A stretch of DNA of 64,000 nt from Sphingomicrobium aestuariivivum (GTDB lineage: Bacteria; Pseudomonadota; Alphaproteobacteria; Sphingomonadales; Sphingomonadaceae): assembly GCF_024721585.1 (NCBI RefSeq), contig NZ_CP102629.1:620001-684000 (forward strand). Reading direction: 5' to 3'. Made by a program: the position numbers and the translations under genes. The notes beneath the pieces are model-generated. The model was not told the origin of the DNA. It ran no database searches and saw only the letters and a program-made list of their open reading frames with translations. Position 1 is the stretch's first letter. Each line of letters opens with the position of its first letter. Positions 4,218-41,753 of this stretch are shown one piece after another.

Positions 4218-5158
<941 letters not shown>

Positions 5159-5162
<4 letters not shown>

Positions 5163-5770
5163 CCGACTGGGTGATCGACCTCATCGACCAGGGCGGGCTC
5201 GTCGCGGTCGCCTTCCTGATGTTCCTCGAGACCGTCTTCCCGCCGATCCCGTCCGAGCTCATCATGAGCCTCGCGGGCATCCGCGCCGGACAGGGTGAAT
5301 TGTCGCTCACCGGCATCATCATCGCCGGTACCTTCGGTGCGATGGCGGGCAATGTCGTCTGGTACATGATCGCCCGCTGGCTCGGCATCGAGCGCTTCAA
5401 GCCGCTGATCGACCGCTGGGGCCGCTGGATCACCATGACCTGGGCCGAGGTCGAGCGCGGCCAGAAATGGTTCGAGCGCTATGGCACCTTCTTCGTCTTC
5501 ATGGGGCGCATGCTGCCGACGGTGCGCAGCCTCGTCTCGGTGCCCGCGGGGCTTCTCAAGATGCGCTGGCGCAGCTTCCTCATCGCCTCGACCATCGGCA
5601 CGGCGGGCTGGACCGCGCTGCTTGCGCTGGCGGGCTACAAGCTGGGCTCGAGCTTCGAGGAGATCGACGAGTTTCTCGGGCCGATCTCGACCGCGATCAT
5701 CGTGACGTTGGTCCTCGCTTATGTCTGGCGTCTCTGGACCCACCGCAAGGTCGGCAAGGCCAAGGCCTGA
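5159..5770 (+). CDS. DedA family inner-membrane protein
   Basis: 203 residues from a GTG at 5159 that overlaps the gshB stop (GTGA). Several hydrophobic stretches are separated by the family motifs ETVFPPIPSEL near the N-terminus and GRMLPTVRSLVSVPAG in the middle. DedA proteins are multi-pass inner-membrane proteins, some shown to flip lipid carriers such as undecaprenyl phosphate or phosphatidylethanolamine. Which lipid this one moves cannot be read from sequence. It probably forms an operon with yraN and gshB and ends convergent with xerC. Confidence 0.9.
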
Positions 5771-34710: not shown

Positions 34711-34736
34711 GTAACCCTTTCCGTTCCCGCCGCGAA
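34711..34736 (+). promoter_or_regulatory. Candidate ECF (SigF-type) promoter of the bufferin operon
   Basis: GTAACC at 34711-34716 and CGAA at 34733-34736 are separated by exactly 16 bp, and the start codon of the first precursor is 51 bp beyond. This matches, as I recall it, the promoter motif of the Caulobacter sigma-F/NrsF system. I found no second GTAACC-N16-CGAA in the window. Confidence 0.7.
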
Positions 34737-34787
34737 CAGGAAGGCAGCGGGACAGACGCATCCCGTGACAATCAACGGGAGCAACCC

Positions 34788-35123
34788 ATGAACACGATCA
34801 AGTCCACCGCAGCCGCCACCGCGCTGCTCGCCCTCGCCGCCTGTTCGAGCGAGACCGCCACCCCCGCCGCCGAAGGCGAGACGGTCGCCATGAACGGCGC
34901 CGAAGTGGAAGAAGCCAGCGCCGACAAGGTCAAATGCTACGGGGTCGCCATGGCGGGCAAGAACGATTGCGCCGCCGGCCCCGGCACCAGCTGCGCGGGC
35001 ACCTCGACCGTCGATTACCAGGGCAATGCCTGGAAATATGTCGACGGCGGCGAGGAAGCCTGCGCCGACTTGGGCGGCACGCTTGCCGAACAGGACAATA
35101 ACGACCCGGGCCTGCCCGCTTAA
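34788..35123 (+). CDS. Bufferin-type RiPP precursor (DUF2282), predicted lipoprotein
   Basis: 111 residues. A signal sequence ends in the lipobox LALAACSS, with C19 as the lipid site; this is unusual for the family. After a 28-residue acidic linker comes the DUF2282 core: C50 [11 protein letters not shown]61 AAGPGTS C69, then [11 protein letters not shown]92. The same four-Cys pattern is in the second precursor at 35229, with identical [12 protein letters not shown] segments. In bufferins such Cys are converted to thiooxazole-type groups by a DUF692 enzyme and bind copper. It is the first gene after the candidate SigF promoter. Confidence 0.85.
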
Positions 35124-35126
35124 CCG

Positions 35127-35187
35127 GCCCGGCTCATGGTGCCTCGCCCGCCACTCCCTCGAACGCCCCCTCGGGCGCGAGCCGGGC
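35127..35187 (+). other. Long-range intercistronic stem between the two precursor genes
   Basis: GCCCGGCTC at 35127-35135 is exactly complementary to GAGCCGGGC at 35179-35187, beginning 3 bp after the first precursor stop. The enclosed 43 nt are GC-rich and can fold further. It could stabilise or end the first precursor transcript and so set the ratio of the two peptides. Confidence 0.45.
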
Positions 35188-35228
35188 GGGGCGCCACCCC
35201 TCTCCCCCCAGTGATGAAGGAAAACCCC

Positions 35229-35522
35229 ATGTCCAAGTCCGCAGCCTTCGGGGCCGCCGCCGCGCTTCTCACCCTCGCCGCCGCCCCCGCGATGGCCGAC
35301 CATCATGACAAGCCCTCGGGCGCCAAGGAGAAATGCTATGGCGTCGCGCTGGCCGGCAAGAACGACTGCGCCGCCGGCCCCGGCACCAGCTGCGCGGGCA
35401 CCAGCAAGGTCGACTATCAGGGTAATGCCTGGAAGTATGTCGCCAAAGGCGAATGCGTGAAGATGGGCGGTTCGCTCAAGCCCAAGGCCGGCAACGAAAA
35501 GCCGGTCCCGCAGCAGGGCTAG
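35229..35522 (+). CDS. Bufferin-type RiPP precursor (DUF2282), secreted form
   Basis: 97 residues from the ATG at 35229, with GAAGGA upstream. The signal peptide (1-23, ending AMAD) has no lipobox Cys, so the product should be free in the periplasm. The core has C36, C47, C55 and C76 in the same spacing as the upstream paralogue (10, 7 and about 20 residues apart). The short tail is [14 protein letters not shown]. His-His follows the cleavage site (DHHDK) and may add metal ligands. It lies 4 bp before the modifying enzyme gene. Confidence 0.9.
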
Positions 35523-35526
35523 CCCG

Positions 35527-36417
35527 GTGACCCCGCGCCCCGCCTTCGCCCACGCCCCGCTGCCCGCCCGCGGCGGTATCGGCCTCAAGCCCGAGCATTT
35601 CGGGGACTTCCTCGACGCGCGCCCGGGCCGGAGCGAGGGCGGGCGCGGCCCGTCATGGGTCGAGGTCCATCCGCAAAATTACATGATGGCGGGCGGCCCG
35701 ATGCATCGCTGGCTCACCGCCGTGCGCGAGGCCGTGCCCGTCAGCTTCCATTCGGTCGGCCTGTCGATCGGCGACCCCGACGGTTGCGACCGCGACGAAC
35801 TCGAACGGCTCGCACGGCTGTGCGAGCGCTACCAGCCCGCGATGGTTTCCGATCACTTGAGCTGGTCGAGCCTCGGCGGCGAGCTGCTGCCCGACCTCCT
35901 GCCGCTGCCGATGACCGACGCGACCCTCTCGCATTTCGTTACCGAGGTCGGTCGCATCCAGGACCGGCTGCAGCGCCGTATCCTGATCGAGAACCCCAGC
36001 CGCATGGTCGCCTTCGCCGAAGACACATACGAAGAAGCCGGATTCCTCGCCGAATTGTCGCGCCGGTCGGGCTGCGGCCTGCTCGTCGATGTGAACAACA
36101 TCCTCGTCGCGCGCACCAATGTCGGGCTCGACCCCCGCGCCTATCTCGACGCCTTGCCGCATGACGCGATCGGCGAGATCCACGTTGCGGGCCATACGGT
36201 CGAGGAGCATGAAGGCGGGGCGTTGCTCGCGATCGACGATCACGGTTCGCCGGTGAGCGAGGAATGCTGGGCCCTGCTAGGCGAACTGCTCGACCGCACC
36301 GGCCCGCGCCCCGTGCTGGTCGAACGCGACAATGACGTGCCCGCTTTTGCCGAACTCGCCGCCGAGGCCGCCCACGCCGACCGGCTTGTCGAGGGAGCCT
36401 ATCGCCATGCGGCCTGA
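35527..36417 (+). CDS. DUF692/MNIO family multinuclear iron oxidative enzyme (BufB-like)
   Basis: 296 residues from a GTG at 35527. The TIM-barrel iron-binding residues of the MbnB/MNIO family are all present: E46 and H48 (EVHPQNY), H75 (SFHSVG), H110 (SDHLSW), E155/N156 (IENPS), D188 and N190 (VDVNN), H219 and H223 (IHVAGH), D238/H239 (DDHG), and E266 (VERDND). Such enzymes use an Fe(II)/Fe(III) centre and oxygen to convert peptide Cys to azole rings. Substrates here should be the two DUF2282 precursors upstream. It overlaps bufC by 11 bp. Confidence 0.93.
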   Translation: MTPRPAFAHAPLPARGGIGLKPEHFGDFLDARPGRSEGGRGPSWVEVHPQNYMMAGGPMHRWLTAVREAVPVSFHSVGLSIGDPDGCDRDELERLARLCERYQPAMVSDHLSWSSLGGELLPDLLPLPMTDATLSHFVTEVGRIQDRLQRRILIENPSRMVAFAEDTYEEAGFLAELSRRSGCGLLVDVNNILVARTNVGLDPRAYLDALPHDAIGEIHVAGHTVEEHEGGALLAIDDHGSPVSEECWALLGELLDRTGPRPVLVERDNDVPAFAELAAEAAHADRLVEGAYRHAA

Positions 36418-37096
36418 CGCCCAGATCGCCTTCGCCGAGACGCTTGCGGGCGGCCCCGCGCGGCTCCCCGCCGACCTGCTCGTCGGCCCGCGTGCCGCCC
36501 AGCTGCGCGGCCTTCGCGCCTACGCCAACACGATCAGCCATGCGCGCTACAAGGCGCTGGAGGAGACCTTCCCCCGCACCCGTGCCGCCATGGGCGACGA
36601 GGCATTCCACGCCGCCGCCACCGCTTTTCTCGACACGCCGTCGCCGCATCGCCGCCCGATCCGTTTGATCGGCGACACTTTCGCCGACAGCCTCGCCGCC
36701 CCTGCGCACCGCGACCTCGCCACCGTCGAGTGGCTGCTCCTCGAAGCGCATGGCGCTGCCGAGGCGCCCGCCGTCACCCTTGCCGGCATCGCCGGCCTCA
36801 CCCCCTCGGCGCTTCTCGCCGCACGGGTGATGCGCCACCCGGCCACCTGCCTCGCGGTGCTCGAAGCGCCCGCCGCCTTCCGCTGGGATGGCGCGCAAGG
36901 CGGTAGCGACGGCTTTGTCCTCCTCACCCGCCCCGAAGCGCAGCGACAGGTCCGACAGGTAAACGCCGCCATCGCCGCACTCGTGGCCGCGCTCGATGCC
37001 CCCATCGCCTTCGCCGACCTGCTCGAGAGCGACGCCGACGCCGTCACCGCGCTTGTCGAAGCGGGCGCCCTCACCCCTGCCCCGGAGTTCCTCTGA
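36407..37096 (+). CDS. DUF2063 family partner of the MNIO enzyme (BufC/HvfC-like)
   Basis: 229 residues from the ATG at 36407. The N-terminal domain has the DUF2063 pattern: QIAFAETLAGG, then RAAQLRGLRAYANTISHARYKALEETFPRTRAAMGDEAFH. The C-terminal domain is more variable. By analogy with MbnC it should hold the precursor leader and present the Cys residues to the iron enzyme. It overlaps bufB by 11 bp and doxX by 1 bp. Confidence 0.9.
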   Translation: MRPDAQIAFAETLAGGPARLPADLLVGPRAAQLRGLRAYANTISHARYKALEETFPRTRAAMGDEAFHAAATAFLDTPSPHRRPIRLIGDTFADSLAAPAHRDLATVEWLLLEAHGAAEAPAVTLAGIAGLTPSALLAARVMRHPATCLAVLEAPAAFRWDGAQGGSDGFVLLTRPEAQRQVRQVNAAIAALVAALDAPIAFADLLESDADAVTALVEAGALTPAPEFL

Positions 37097-37539
37097 TGAA
37101 GCTGTTCGACACTTTCCGAGCCCTGACCGACAAGCCGGTCGTCACCGACCTCGTCCTCCTCTTCACCCGCATCGGGCTGGGCGCCATCTTCTGGCAGTCG
37201 GGACGCACCAAGATCGAGGAAGGCAGCCTGTTCGAGATCAGCGACACCACCTTCTTCCTCTTCGCCGAGGAATATGCGGGCGTCCCCCTCCTCGCGCCAG
37301 CGACGGCGGCCGTCCTCGCCACCGTCGCCGAGCACCTCCTCCCGCTCCTCCTCGCCATCGGCCTTGCCACGCGGCTCGCCGCCGCGGGGCTGATCGGCAT
37401 GACGCTGGTCATCCAGCTGTTCGTCTATCCGCAGGCCTGGTGGGTGCCGCACATGGGCTGGGTCGCGCTGGGGCTCGTCCTCCTGACGCAGGGGCCGGGG
37501 CGCATCAGCGCGGATAAACTGCTAGGCAGGCGGACATGA
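37096..37539 (+). CDS. DoxX family membrane protein
   Basis: 147 residues with four hydrophobic segments and the DoxX core LFTRIGLGAIFWQSGRTKIEEG near the start and ATVAEHLLPLLLAIGLATRLAA in the middle. DoxX-like proteins are found in many DUF2282/DUF692/DUF2063 loci; a role in quinone or thiol redox at the inner membrane is suspected but not shown. Translationally coupled to bufC (TGATG) and to the sigma factor gene (4-bp overlap). Confidence 0.88.
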   Translation: MKLFDTFRALTDKPVVTDLVLLFTRIGLGAIFWQSGRTKIEEGSLFEISDTTFFLFAEEYAGVPLLAPATAAVLATVAEHLLPLLLAIGLATRLAAAGLIGMTLVIQLFVYPQAWWVPHMGWVALGLVLLTQGPGRISADKLLGRRT

Positions 37540-38063
37540 CGCGGCTCGGCGACCAGGACATGCGCACGCTGATGCGCGCGGCCCAAGGCGGCGACAAGGC
37601 CGCCTATCGCACCGCGCTAGGCGCGCTGTCCGACTGGCTCCACGCCTATTTCGCCCGCCGCATCGCCCCCGCGCAGGTCGACGACCTCGTCCAGGAAACG
37701 CTCGTCTCGATCCATGTGAAGCGCGCCAGTTACGACCCCGACCGCCCCTTCTATCCGTGGGCTGCCGCGATCGCGCGCTTCCGCTGGATCGATGCGCTGC
37801 GCAAGATCACGCGGCAGGCCGAGACCGAACTCGAGATCGACCCGCCCGTGCCCTCCGCCGAGGAACCCGTGCTCGCCCGCCTCAGCCTCGACCAGCTCAT
37901 CGGCCACCTGCCGCAGAAACAGGCCCAGCCCATCACCCTCACCAAGGTCGAGGGGCGCACCATCGCCGAGACCGCCGCCATCACCGGCCAGAGCGAAAGC
38001 GCGGTCAAGGTCAACATCCATCGCGGCCTGAAGAAGCTCGCCGCCCTCGTCGAAAGCGAATGA
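37536..38063 (+). CDS. ECF RNA polymerase sigma factor (SigF-like)
   Basis: 175 residues. Region 2 is visible as ARRIAPAQVDDLVQETLVSIHVKRASYDPDRPFYPWAAAIARFRWIDALRK. Region 4 ends in EGRTIAETAAITGQSESAVKVNIHRGLKKLA. Context (DUF1109 anti-sigma immediately after, bufferin genes before) places it with the Caulobacter SigF group, which responds to heavy-metal or oxidative stress. The upstream GTAACC-N16-CGAA motif suggests it drives its own operon. It overlaps nrsF by 4 bp. Confidence 0.92.
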   Translation: MTRLGDQDMRTLMRAAQGGDKAAYRTALGALSDWLHAYFARRIAPAQVDDLVQETLVSIHVKRASYDPDRPFYPWAAAIARFRWIDALRKITRQAETELEIDPPVPSAEEPVLARLSLDQLIGHLPQKQAQPITLTKVEGRTIAETAAITGQSESAVKVNIHRGLKKLAALVESE

Positions 38064-38695
38064 ACATGCGTACCGAAGATCTCCTCGACCGGCTGAGCCA
38101 CGAGGCCGCCCCCGTCCGCCCCGTCTCGATCGGCCGCGCGCGCCTCGGCCTTGCGCTCGTGGCGCTGGCCACCGTGGCGCTCGTCCTCGCCCTGTGGAGC
38201 CCCCGCCCGCAGCTCATGGACGGCAGCGCCGATGCCATGACGCTGGTGCTCGCCGCGCTCTTCGCGCTGCTGGCGGGCGCGGCGGGCGTGACCGCCACGC
38301 GGCTCGCCCGCCCAGCCGTCGGCGCAGCGCCCGGCGGCGGGCTCTGGGTCTTTGCCGCCATCCTCGTCTTCCCCGCCATCGCGCTGGTCCAGCAAATGCT
38401 CGGCCATGGCGATACCGACCAAGTCGCGCTCGGGATGTCCTGCCTTGCAACCGGCACGGCGATGAGCCTCTTCACCGCGCTCTTCCTCACGCTCCACCTG
38501 CGCCGTGGCGCGCCGGTGCTGCCGCAGCGGGCGGGCCTCGTCGCGGGACTGTCGGCGGGCGCGGTGGGCGCGCTGGCCATCACGCTCGAATGCGACGGCA
38601 CCACCTTCGCGCATCTCGCCTTCTGGCATGTCGCCATCCTTGCCGCCTGGGCCGCGATCGGCCGCTTCGGCATCGCGCGCCTCATTCGCTGGTAA
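38060..38695 (+). CDS. DUF1109/NrsF family transmembrane anti-sigma factor
   Basis: 211 residues with about six hydrophobic helices and an N-terminal cytoplasmic segment (MNMRTEDLLDRLSHEAAPV) that starts like other NrsF proteins. Only two Cys occur, C128 (GMSCLATG) and C178 (LECDGTT), both at the ends of helices, matching the two conserved Cys that NrsF needs to sense metals in Caulobacter, as I recall. It should hold the upstream sigma factor at the membrane until its thiols are modified. Confidence 0.9.
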   Translation: MNMRTEDLLDRLSHEAAPVRPVSIGRARLGLALVALATVALVLALWSPRPQLMDGSADAMTLVLAALFALLAGAAGVTATRLARPAVGAAPGGGLWVFAAILVFPAIALVQQMLGHGDTDQVALGMSCLATGTAMSLFTALFLTLHLRRGAPVLPQRAGLVAGLSAGAVGALAITLECDGTTFAHLAFWHVAILAAWAAIGRFGIARLIRW

Positions 38696-38749: not shown

Positions 38750-38826
38750 GCACCCATAGCTCAGCTGGATAGAGCGCTGCCCTCCGAAGGCAGAGGCCAG
38801 AGGTTCGAATCCTCTTGGGTGCGCCA
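38750..38826 (+). tRNA. tRNA-Arg (anticodon CCG)
   Basis: A complete cloverleaf with encoded CCA. Acceptor GCACCCA (38750-38756) pairs with TGGGTGC (38816-38822), discriminator G at 38823. Anticodon stem CTGCC/GGCAG encloses loop CTCCGAA with anticodon CCG at 38784-38786, reading CGG. The T-loop TTCGAAT is canonical. Confidence 0.96.
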
Positions 38827-39149: not shown

Positions 39150-41753
39150 ATGAAAAAGATGCTTCTGTGCAGCAGCGCCCTCGTGGCCGTTGCCCTCCCG
39201 GGTGTCGCCAGCGCGCAGTCGACCGGCTCGGTCGACTTCGACGATGACGCGATCGTCATCACCGGCACCGCCGAAACCGACGTCGGTGGCGTCGAGATCC
39301 CCGACACGCCGAAGGCCAAGCAGGTCATCGATGACGAGCTGATCCAGAAGCAGCGTCCGGGTCAGACGATCAACGACATCGTCAACCTCGTCCCCGGCGT
39401 CTCGTTCCAGAACAACGACCCCTGGGGTTCGTCGGGCGGTGGCTTCACCATCCGCGGCTTCACCTCGGACCGCATCTCGCAGACCCTCGACGGCATCCCG
39501 CTGAACGATTCGGGCAACTATGCGCTCTACACCAACCAGCAGGTCGACAGCGAAATCCTCGAAGAGGTCAACGTCAACCTCGGCTCGACCGACGTCGACA
39601 GCCCGACCGCTTCGGCCGTCGGCGGCACCATCAACATCCGCACCCGTCGCCCGGGCAAGGAATTCGGTGTCTTCTCGACGCTCAGCTACGGCGACGTCTT
39701 CGCCGACGGCCCCGTCTGGGACCGCAGCTACAAGCGCGTCTTCGGCATGGTCGACACCGGCGACCTGACCGGCAACGGCCTCACCGCCTTCGGTTCGGCC
39801 AGCTACACCACTTACGGTGTTCCGTGGAACGACTACGGTCGCATCCGCAAGCAGCAGTATAACGCCCGCATCCACCAGGACCTCGGTGGCGGCGACTTCA
39901 TCTCGCTGACCGGCCATTACAACCAGAACCGCAACAACTTTGCGGGCTCGGTCCGCTTCAGCGACCTCACCGAAGCGCTCGAGAACGGCGACAAGGAATA
40001 TCGCTTCCGCGCCGACGAAGTCGACGGTGACTGCACCATCCCGGCCCCCGTCGCCGGCGAAGCCGACTTCTACAGCGACCGTTCGGGCTGCGGTGCGGAA
40101 TTCTCGCGTCGTTACAACCCGTCGAACACCGGCAACATCCGTGGTTCGGCGCTGTTCAACCTCACCGACCGCCTGGTCTTCTCGGTCGACCCGAGCTTCC
40201 AGTACGTCAAGGCCAATGGTGGTGGCCCCGAAGGCGTGAACGAAAGCGAATGCTACGTTCGTGCCAACGGCCGCTTCCCCTATTGCGACACGACCGACAA
40301 CGGTAACGACGCGATCACCGGCGTGATCGGTGGCCGTTACTACTTCGGCCGCGATCTCAACGGCGACGGCGACCTGCTCGACGTCGTGGCGGCGAACGAT
40401 CCGAGCCAGACCCGTACCTATCGCTACGCGGTCGTCTCGAACCTCGCCTACGAGATCAACGACGACCATCGCGTCCGTCTCGCCTACACGTTCGACTTCG
40501 CCGACCACCGCCAGACCGGCCAGGTGTCGCTGATGCAGAACGACGGCGAGCCGATCGACGTCTTCTCGGTCAACGAAGCGCTCCTCACGGTCGACGGCTT
40601 CGAGATCAACAAGCGTAACCGTCAGTCCTACGCGATCCTCAACCAGGTCTCGACCGAATATCGCGGTCAGTTCCTGAACGACGACCTCACCGTCGTCGCG
40701 GGTCTGCGTCTGCCGTTCTTCAAGCGCAAGCTCGACAACCGTTGCTACACGACCACGGCCGACGCCGGCCGCGGCTTCGTCGACTGCGTCGGTTTCGATG
40801 CCGGCCAGGACGTCAGCGCCTATGAAGCGGCGAACCCCTACACGATCGATCCGGTGACCGGTGAAGTCACGGGCTTCGCGCCGCCGACCGAGCGTACGCT
40901 GGACTATGACAAGCTGCTGCCGAACGTGGGCTTCACCTACGCCTTCAGCGACTTCTCGGTCTTCGGTAACTACGCCAAGGGTCTTTCGGTCCCCTCGACC
41001 GACACGCTCTACACCGCGCTCTACTATCCGGAAGGCACCGAGCGCGCCGAGCCGACCCCCGAAACCACCGACAGCTTCGACGGTGGCCTGCGTTACCAGA
41101 ACCGCAAGGTCCAGGCGCAGATCGCGGGTTACTTCACCCAGTACAACAACCGTCTCGCGGTCAGCTACGACCCCGAGCTGGACGAATCGGTCACCCGTAA
41201 CCTGGGCCCGGTCGACAAGTACGGCGTGGACGCCTCGGTCGCCTACAACGTGACGCCGAACACGCTGGTCTACGTCTACGGCTCGATCAACGAGTCGGAA
41301 ATCCAGGAAAATGTGCTCGACGGCCGTACCTGCCGCGAGGGCGACCTGACCGATCCGCGTTACTTCTGTGAAGGTGGCCTCGGCGGCACTCGCTTCCTCG
41401 CGACCGCCGGCAAGAACGAAGCCGGTGCCCCGCTGTGGAGCGTCGGTGGCCGTCTGCAGCAGCGCTTCGGCGCGGTCGAGCTCGGCCTCCAGGCCAAGCG
41501 TACCGGCAAGCGTTACGGCAACGACGTGAACACCGTCGAAGTCGATCCCTACACCGTCGTCGATCTCGATGCCCGCATCGACCTCGGCTACGTCGGTAGC
41601 GTGTTCGGCGACGCGGCGCTGCAGTTCAACGTCACCAACCTGTTTGACGAAGGTTACCTCGGCTACGTCAGCCCGGGTCTCGAAAACGAGCCCTTCTTCA
41701 TCCAGATCGGTGCGCCGCGCGCGGCTTCAGCCACGCTGATGCTCGGCTTCTAG
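39150..41753 (+). CDS. TonB-dependent outer-membrane receptor
   Basis: 867 residues. The signal peptide ends near residue 22 (VASAQ). A TonB-box-like DDDAIVITGT precedes the plug domain (about 50-165, QTINDIVNLVPGVSF, FTIRGFTSDRI). A 22-strand-type barrel follows, ending in an aromatic residue (TLMLGF). The codon use favours CGT, GGT and AAC-type codons more than neighbours, as in highly expressed genes. Substrate is unknown; no transporter or sigma/anti-sigma pair is adjacent. It lies alone behind a long leader and is closed by a strong terminator. Confidence 0.93.
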   Translation: MKKMLLCSSALVAVALPGVASAQSTGSVDFDDDAIVITGTAETDVGGVEIPDTPKAKQVIDDELIQKQRPGQTINDIVNLVPGVSFQNNDPWGSSGGGFTIRGFTSDRISQTLDGIPLNDSGNYALYTNQQVDSEILEEVNVNLGSTDVDSPTASAVGGTINIRTRRPGKEFGVFSTLSYGDVFADGPVWDRSYKRVFGMVDTGDLTGNGLTAFGSASYTTYGVPWNDYGRIRKQQYNARIHQDLGGGDFISLTGHYNQNRNNFAGSVRFSDLTEALENGDKEYRFRADEVDGDCTIPAPVAGEADFYSDRSGCGAEFSRRYNPSNTGNIRGSALFNLTDRLVFSVDPSFQYVKANGGGPEGVNESECYVRANGRFPYCDTTDNGNDAITGVIGGRYYFGRDLNGDGDLLDVVAANDPSQTRTYRYAVVSNLAYEINDDHRVRLAYTFDFADHRQTGQVSLMQNDGEPIDVFSVNEALLTVDGFEINKRNRQSYAILNQVSTEYRGQFLNDDLTVVAGLRLPFFKRKLDNRCYTTTADAGRGFVDCVGFDAGQDVSAYEAANPYTIDPVTGEVTGFAPPTERTLDYDKLLPNVGFTYAFSDFSVFGNYAKGLSVPSTDTLYTALYYPEGTERAEPTPETTDSFDGGLRYQNRKVQAQIAGYFTQYNNRLAVSYDPELDESVTRNLGPVDKYGVDASVAYNVTPNTLVYVYGSINESEIQENVLDGRTCREGDLTDPRYFCEGGLGGTRFLATAGKNEAGAPLWSVGGRLQQRFGAVELGLQAKRTGKRYGNDVNTVEVDPYTVVDLDARIDLGYVGSVFGDAALQFNVTNLFDEGYLGYVSPGLENEPFFIQIGAPRAASATLMLGF

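Follow-up and report, generated by a model that had tools for sequence, protein, structure and literature searches.

The bufferins form a large family of ribosomally synthesized and post-translationally modified peptides (RiPPs) that chelate copper, and the question at issue is why some clusters contain more than one precursor gene. Tandem as well as unlinked precursor genes have been reported for bufferins (Antoine 2025, PMC12452194), and the main text of that paper gives lipoprotein signal peptides for about 16% of Buf2, which is its sole use of the word 'lipoprotein'. Chen 2025 (PMC12636315) demonstrated lipidation of DybA and NedA, made a lipid-anchored oxazolin and, from MNIO neighbourhoods, predicted signal peptidase II (SPII) signals for 'a subset' of bufferins and oxazolins; there is thus experimental precedent for the lipidation of an MNIO product. 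It has also been proposed that bufferins belong to the captophorins, a name put forward for copper peptides with thiooxazole (PMC12668002); the main text of that proposal contains no word beginning with 'lipo'. Lipid-anchored bufferins in general are already known. Here we analyzed a 64,000-nucleotide stretch of Sphingomicrobium aestuariivivum (Sphingomonadaceae), hereafter the window (bases 620001–684000 of a one-contig 2.35-Mb genome), in which two Buf1 (DUF2282) precursor genes stand in tandem, the first encoding a predicted lipoprotein (lipo-Buf1) and the second a soluble Buf1. We consider it probable that one MNIO–partner pair arms two copper buffers, one anchored in a membrane and one free in the periplasm, induced through sigma-F/NrsF.

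The locus resembles described Buf1 clusters, for example Caulobacter CC3252–CC3257 (PMC3511200, PMC12452194), in its kinds of genes, its promoter consensus (GTAACC-N16-CGAA) and its four-Cys core. Unlike the reported clusters, one of its two precursors has a lipobox, whereas the main text of Antoine 2025 gives lipoprotein signals for Buf2 only. With the lipoprotein Buf2 and the DAG-RiPPs of Chen 2025 it has in common an MNIO-modified RiPP precursor on the SPII lipoprotein pathway (here a predicted one), but in contrast to them the precursor belongs to a Buf1 lineage whose members often form a pair with a soluble Buf1. The expected destinations of the two precursors are different, and this difference recurs. 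The features of the locus are as follows:

34711–34736, forward strand: sigma-F-type extracytoplasmic function (ECF) promoter GTAACC-N16-CGAA, an exact consensus match, first base 77 nt 5′ of the precursor 1 start
34788–35123, forward strand: precursor 1, lipo-Buf1 (DUF2282), 111 aa; PF10048, 71.1 bits (cut-off 22.4)
35124–35228, forward strand: 105-nt spacer between the precursors with a stable stem-loop (folding compared with shuffles)
35229–35522, forward strand: precursor 2, soluble Buf1 (DUF2282), 97 aa; PF10048, 87.5 bits (cut-off 22.4)
35527–36417, forward strand: BufB, MNIO (DUF692) maturase with a GTG start; PF05114, 308 bits, and NCBIfam MNIO_BufB
36407–37096, forward strand: BufC, DUF2063 partner protein; PF09836, 46.6 bits (cut-off 27.2)
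37096–37539, forward strand: DoxX-family membrane protein; PF07681, 62.5 bits
37536–38063, forward strand: ECF sigma factor, judged to be of the sigma-F type from its NrsF neighbour and the promoter
38060–38695, forward strand: NrsF anti-sigma-F factor; PF06532, 105.5 bits over residues 12–211

A DUF2282 precursor with four Cys, a BufB-type MNIO, a DUF2063 partner and a Sec signal place the locus among the Buf1 bufferin clusters. Across the whole genome, DUF2282 matched nothing but these two precursors, and PF05114 nothing but BufB. A first-pass annotation, made by a model from the sequence alone, had described two DUF2282 paralogues with a common four-Cys core and an identical segment, the first with a lipobox (LAAC, C19) and the second with an ordinary signal, followed by DUF692, DUF2063, DoxX, ECF sigma and anti-sigma genes. 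Both paralogues scored above the PF10048 cut-off, and all of the downstream genes were identified by profile matches. The family PF06532, now named NrsF, was formerly called DUF1109, the domain that the first-pass annotation gave for the anti-sigma factor. BufB also exceeded the cut-off of the NCBIfam model MNIO_BufB (NF050167; 333 bits, cut-off 310), whereas BufC reached 14 of 142 bits on the HvfC model and NrsF 57.3 bits on AntiSigF_NrsF, below its cut-off of 300; the BufC profile scan ran from another in-frame ATG at 36332. The alignment of BufB with the solved structure 3BWW covers the SDH, EN, DVNN, H-x-AGH, D-x-HG and ERD motifs, and its metal-site motifs align partly with the similar ones of MbnB. 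These motifs hold the iron ligands, which the first-pass annotation had described as complete in the DUF692 enzyme. The first-pass annotation needs correction in two respects: it took all genes to overlap, whereas gaps of 105 nt (between the precursors) and 4 nt (between precursor 2 and the MNIO gene) precede overlaps that are limited to MNIO through NrsF, and it knew of no described lipid-anchored bufferin, although such bufferins are predicted in Antoine 2025 and Chen 2025.

A lipobox is a [LVI][AST][GA]C motif that follows a hydrophobic segment, and E. coli lipoproteins with Ser at position +2 are sorted to the outer membrane while those with Asp at +2 stay in the inner membrane. Lipobox and signal calls were made with our own pattern script rather than SignalP, a Sec signal being a hydrophobic N-terminus with an SPII-type or a signal peptidase I (SPI)-type cut. 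Precursor 1 carries the lipobox ALAAC followed by SS (LAAC at residues 16–19), with Cys19 as the predicted lipidated residue and Ser at +2; a 30-residue linker follows Cys19, and the core Cys stand at residues 50, 61, 69 and 92. For precursor 2, which has no Cys ahead of the core, an SPI-type cut is predicted between AMA and DHH, with a mature start of DHHDK. Both precursors contain the four-Cys core and an exactly identical segment of 13 residues, and their cores are identical at 43 of 62 positions.

As the first-pass annotation had suggested, DUF2282 proteins were searched for further lipobox members. The family sample consisted of 298 genomes, 104 of them with DUF2282 among the matches listed; 102 of these were read (G111 and G187 were left out), which gave 135 loci and 151 gene rows. 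The genus sample consisted of 61 genomes, 29 with DUF2282. The lipobox rule was passed by 40 of the 151 family-sample rows. One of them, from G301, resembles an SPI signal and was counted as soluble in the genome, MNIO and core-Cys counts, for which 39 rows from 34 genomes and 13 genus codes remain; it stays among 40 lipo rows in the pair listing, the pre-core-Cys counts, the tree and the promoter counts. All four core Cys were kept in 39/39 lipo-Buf1, whose +2 residue was Ser (27), Gly (11) or Thr (1) and never Asp, and the linkers of the 40 rows had a median length of 28 residues with 25% Ala and 20% Glu. Outside the family, a lipobox was found in one of 95 Buf1 genes read from 93 loci, which were not a random sample (54 best-scoring among the matches listed and 39 lower-ranked, hand-picked ones). 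These proportions (39/151 versus 1/95) suggest that lipo-Buf1 is a lineage concentrated in one family. The single outside member (L284 of G365, positions 1393–1671) has Asp at +2 and, by the E. coli rule, would stay in the inner membrane.

Tandem pairs combined a lipo with a soluble precursor in 6/6 cases in the genus sample; the 14 true pairs of the family sample comprised seven lipo–soluble pairs with an MNIO, five lipo–lipo pairs without one and two soluble–soluble pairs, after removal of L239 of G213, where a single gene, interrupted by an in-frame stop, takes up two of the 151 rows. Lipo-Buf1 occurred in 13 of the 29 DUF2282-positive genus genomes, and a soluble Buf1 was also present in 33 of the 34 family-sample genomes with lipo-Buf1. 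In four genomes (G002, G006, G052 and G056), the sole DUF2282 gene was the lipo form, inside the operon of the only MNIO of the genome. Of all the sequence evidence, this arrangement speaks most strongly for the lipo form as a genuine substrate; in G025, only the soluble form was present. The proposal in the first-pass annotation that one enzyme serves both an anchored and a soluble precursor is supported by this recurrence; the modification and copper binding of both precursors we infer from membership in the bufferin family.

In the proposed mechanism, BufB–BufC would modify both precursors in the cytoplasm, where the central core Cys would become thiooxazole, the modification seen in known bufferins. 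Precursor 2 would then be cut by SPI and released into the periplasm, and precursor 1 would follow the Lgt and LspA route (the host genome encodes both enzymes, with one match each) and receive a lipid on C19. With Ser at +2, precursor 1 would most likely reside in the outer membrane by the E. coli rule, with its presumed copper-binding core held on a flexible tether rich in Ala and Glu; the pLDDT (predicted local distance difference test) values below 50 for residues 19–44 in the AlphaFold model are in keeping with a disordered tether. Metal stress would induce the operon through sigma-F/NrsF, and copper would be buffered at two sites, by a free peptide in the periplasm and by an anchored one at a membrane surface. 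A copper relay between the anchored and the free form would be speculative, and nothing that we found bears on it.

Several observations weigh against this mechanism. The 13 members of set A1 and the 39 family rows were selected by the lipobox, so that the Cys they share is not independent evidence. Precursor 1 scored 13.0 bits on Pfam LPAM_1 (PF08139), below the cut-off of 20, and the lipobox call rests on our own pattern; LPAM_1 matched one of 13 lipo members at E values up to 1. On the NCBIfam model BufA2 (NF050166; cut-off 60), which was made for Buf2 and not for Buf1, the precursors scored 14.9 and 29.7, and the AlphaFold model of precursor 1 was poor (mean pLDDT 56.8). The sub-threshold LPAM_1 score is what could be expected if the lipobox were a false positive and precursor 1 were released by SPI, which would make it another soluble bufferin. 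We regard this as very improbable, since 107 of the 111 rows without a lipobox by our rule lack any Cys ahead of the core and, in the 44 rows that have one, it sits in a lipobox in 40, a near confinement that puts the lipobox beyond chance; moreover, the lipo label clusters on a tree built from the cores only. On NCBIfam lipo_YgdI_YgdR, precursor 1 scored 17.6 of 42 bits. A search of the Protein Data Bank with the precursor gave one match only, at chance level (E 0.13).

Further points of this kind concern the MNIO and the promoter. An MNIO gene lay within 3.5 kb on either strand of 105 of the 111 soluble rows in the family sample, versus 9 of the 39 lipo rows, so that modification of the other 30 would need to act in trans. 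Under a same-strand rule that includes G301, the orphan lipo rows numbered 31, of which 24 stood by tgt or queA, 4 by argB or folD and 3 elsewhere (neighbours named by Pfam and NCBIfam from one example each). The motif GTAACN-N16-CGAA was found at only 2 of the 24 tgt/queA orphans versus 6 of the 7 others; most tgt/queA copies hence lie outside the same visible promoter, which weakens simple co-induction. Both the distance from an MNIO and the scarcity of the motif would suit a lipoprotein on which the MNIO does not act, precursor 1 being an unmodified Cys-containing anchor or decoy. This explanation seems improbable to us in view of the conserved core Cys, of the four genomes in which the sole precursor stands beside the sole MNIO, and of the MNIO found elsewhere in the genome in 25/25 orphan-lipo genomes examined, a count that stands without a control group of lipo-less genomes.

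Among loci of all sources, 24 lipo loci without an MNIO showed tgt, 13 of them together with queA and 11 with tgt alone, where the stretch often ended early; neither gene was found at the 208 loci that hold a soluble Buf1, 28 of which were shorter than 4 kb. Lipo-Buf1 adjacent to tgt/queA was seen in several genera of the family (e.g. L041, L036, L043, L066, L116 and L119), some as lipo–lipo tandems, with no MNIO nearby. In one genome (G043), a lipo-Buf1 has, judged by eye, a MerA-like reductase and a small protein resembling MerF close by (L054, G043:C136, 2545–6049 as numbered on the reversed strand). The same contig bears a bufferin operon (L055), and the four DUF2282 genes of this genome are perhaps on mobile elements. 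Among plasmid records, 242 matched the core, and none of the 40 matches listed covered more than 80% of the query.

To trace the origin of the pair, we used the core-only tree, from which signal and linker were omitted (197 rows, 67 columns; poorly resolved, with 10 of 186 inner branches starred). The lipo label required 8 changes on this tree, compared with a mean of 46.3 for shuffled labels, and none of 500 shuffles was as low. A tandem duplication within the window was considered and rejected, as precursor 2 came only 112th of 196 when ranked by closeness to precursor 1. An orphan lipo-Buf1 from another genus (G209) has a core identical to that of precursor 1 at 55 of 64 positions, more than precursors 1 and 2 share with each other. 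In genomes with both forms, 12 of 13 lipo rows (a comparison that includes two non-tandem genomes, G026 and G043) were nearer to a lipo core of another genome than to their own soluble core. This result suggests that the window pair was most likely joined from two old lineages. The G281 lipo core, in contrast, was nearer to its own soluble core, and local duplication looks likely for this pair. Within-genome scores for the six genus pairs were reached by 56/720 permutations for signal peptides and 22/720 for cores, while the corresponding values were 2/20000 and 64/20000 for all 11 pairs, and 6/20000 and 78/20000 for the 8 less redundant pairs. Signals and cores hence both track within genomes, the signals slightly more strongly in the 11-pair and 8-pair sets but not in the six genus pairs, and shared ancestry can be enough to explain this, though co-evolution of the two signal peptides as a common recognition element may contribute.

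The N-termini of the two forms also differ. An X-X-His arrangement at the N-terminus, known as ATCUN, binds Cu(II) and needs a free amine. The predicted mature soluble partner starts with Asp-His-His in 6 of 7 genus sequences, while His was found in none of 51 lipo linkers; this pattern fits a different metal handling by the two forms. A copper-binding His N-terminus as a general trait of soluble Buf1 was rejected, because His at mature position 3 occurred in only 7 of 232 sequences with a predicted cut, six of them from the genus. In two tandem pairs of Rhodobacterales (L110 and L127, both members soluble, outside the set of 232), three predicted mature N-termini read ADNH by eye, which may be a further X-X-His end. 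A literature search joining bufferin with ATCUN found no paper.

Such similar cores raise the question of plain redundancy, in which both precursors would be modified and would serve the same periplasmic buffering, with the anchor merely stopping loss of the peptide and no division of labour. The four Sphingomicrobium genomes with the lipo form alone and G025 with the soluble form alone indicate that either form may suffice. However, nearly all lipo-Buf1 genomes keep a soluble one too, the lineages are largely distinct on the tree, and the N-termini differ in kind, with a DHH bearing a free amine in the soluble form of the genus and an acylated Cys with a tether rich in Ala and Glu in the lipo form; we thus think redundancy rather unlikely, although it is the most credible of the alternatives. 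Beyond an anchored and a free buffer at this locus, a wider interpretation can be offered only tentatively, namely that a two-compartment copper buffer recurs in Sphingomonadaceae. One MNIO would arm a soluble bufferin together with one or two lipo-bufferins of the outer membrane, whose genes would usually lie at a distance, by tgt/queA, and whose modification would be in trans; Sphingomicrobium would have united both in one operon, where the soluble form gained the predicted Asp-His-His. Copper may be captured by the free form, and the anchored form may either keep it at the membrane or let it leave in vesicles. Relatives with the lipo form only, the soluble form only, both in one operon or a distant lipo form allow direct tests of function and of the choice of substrate.

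Our literature searches did not turn up the lipo-Buf1 lineage, its pairing with a soluble Buf1 or its tgt/queA site, although the supplement of Chen 2025 may list operon-borne members, and the main texts of Antoine 2025 and Chen 2025 contain no word beginning with 'Sphingo' or 'Erythrobacter'. Chen 2025 mined open reading frames (ORFs) from MNIO neighbourhoods; the orphan lipo-Buf1 genes lie outside such neighbourhoods, and mining of this kind would miss them.

With regard to regulation, GTAACC-N16-CGAA is the binding sequence of Caulobacter sigma-F, supported by 5′ rapid amplification of cDNA ends at two promoters (Kohler 2012, PMC3511200), and the same paper lists the Caulobacter NrsF counterpart as DUF1109. 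The exact promoter at 34711–34736, together with the ECF sigma and NrsF genes inside the operon, places the locus in a sigma-F regulon; the first-pass annotation had started the locus at 34711, which coincides exactly with the first base of this promoter. In the family sample, GTAACN-N16-CGAA lay within 200 nt upstream of 94 of the 151 Buf1 rows, whereas each other spacing from 10 to 22 was found in 0 to 2 rows. The soluble gene of the pairs in G001, G018 and G035 has its own GTAAC[TAG]-N16-CGAA, with the first base 78–84 nt upstream, and the two peptides could therefore be driven separately there; GTAAC was absent from positions 34990–35228 of the window. The region 35100–35240 folded beyond dinucleotide shuffles (z −2.24; 4 of 200 folded as well), and the spacer alone folded weakly compared with base shuffles (z −1.3). 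For the other pairs, base-shuffle z values were −2.3 to −5.7 in five with gaps longer than 100 nt and −1.2 to 0.7 in five with short gaps.

Genome-wide, the sigma-F pattern was at chance level (6 sites versus 13 for the reversed control). The operon has a site 51 nt before its start and msrA one 32 nt before its start; a third site, with N17, lies 186 nt before an ABC-transporter-like ORF. The msrA product (PF01625, 183.6 bits; L153, 1501–2212; G000:C1:198114 on, outside the window) has its own lipobox, ALAAC. GTAACN-N16-CGAA was found at msrA in 6 of 20 genus loci from genomes with DUF2282 versus 0 of 10 from genomes without it (Fisher P 0.07, a value that ignores relatedness). In L040 (G227, 4825–5571), a soluble Buf1 and an MNIO are preceded by a protein of 244 residues in which, by eye, there are two domains of the DUF2282 type and a spacer rich in Ala and Glu. 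In the window, a tRNA-Arg gene lies at 38750, 3′ of the operon, and beyond it stands a TonB-dependent receptor gene at 39150–41753, for which the best NCBIfam match was below the cut-off.

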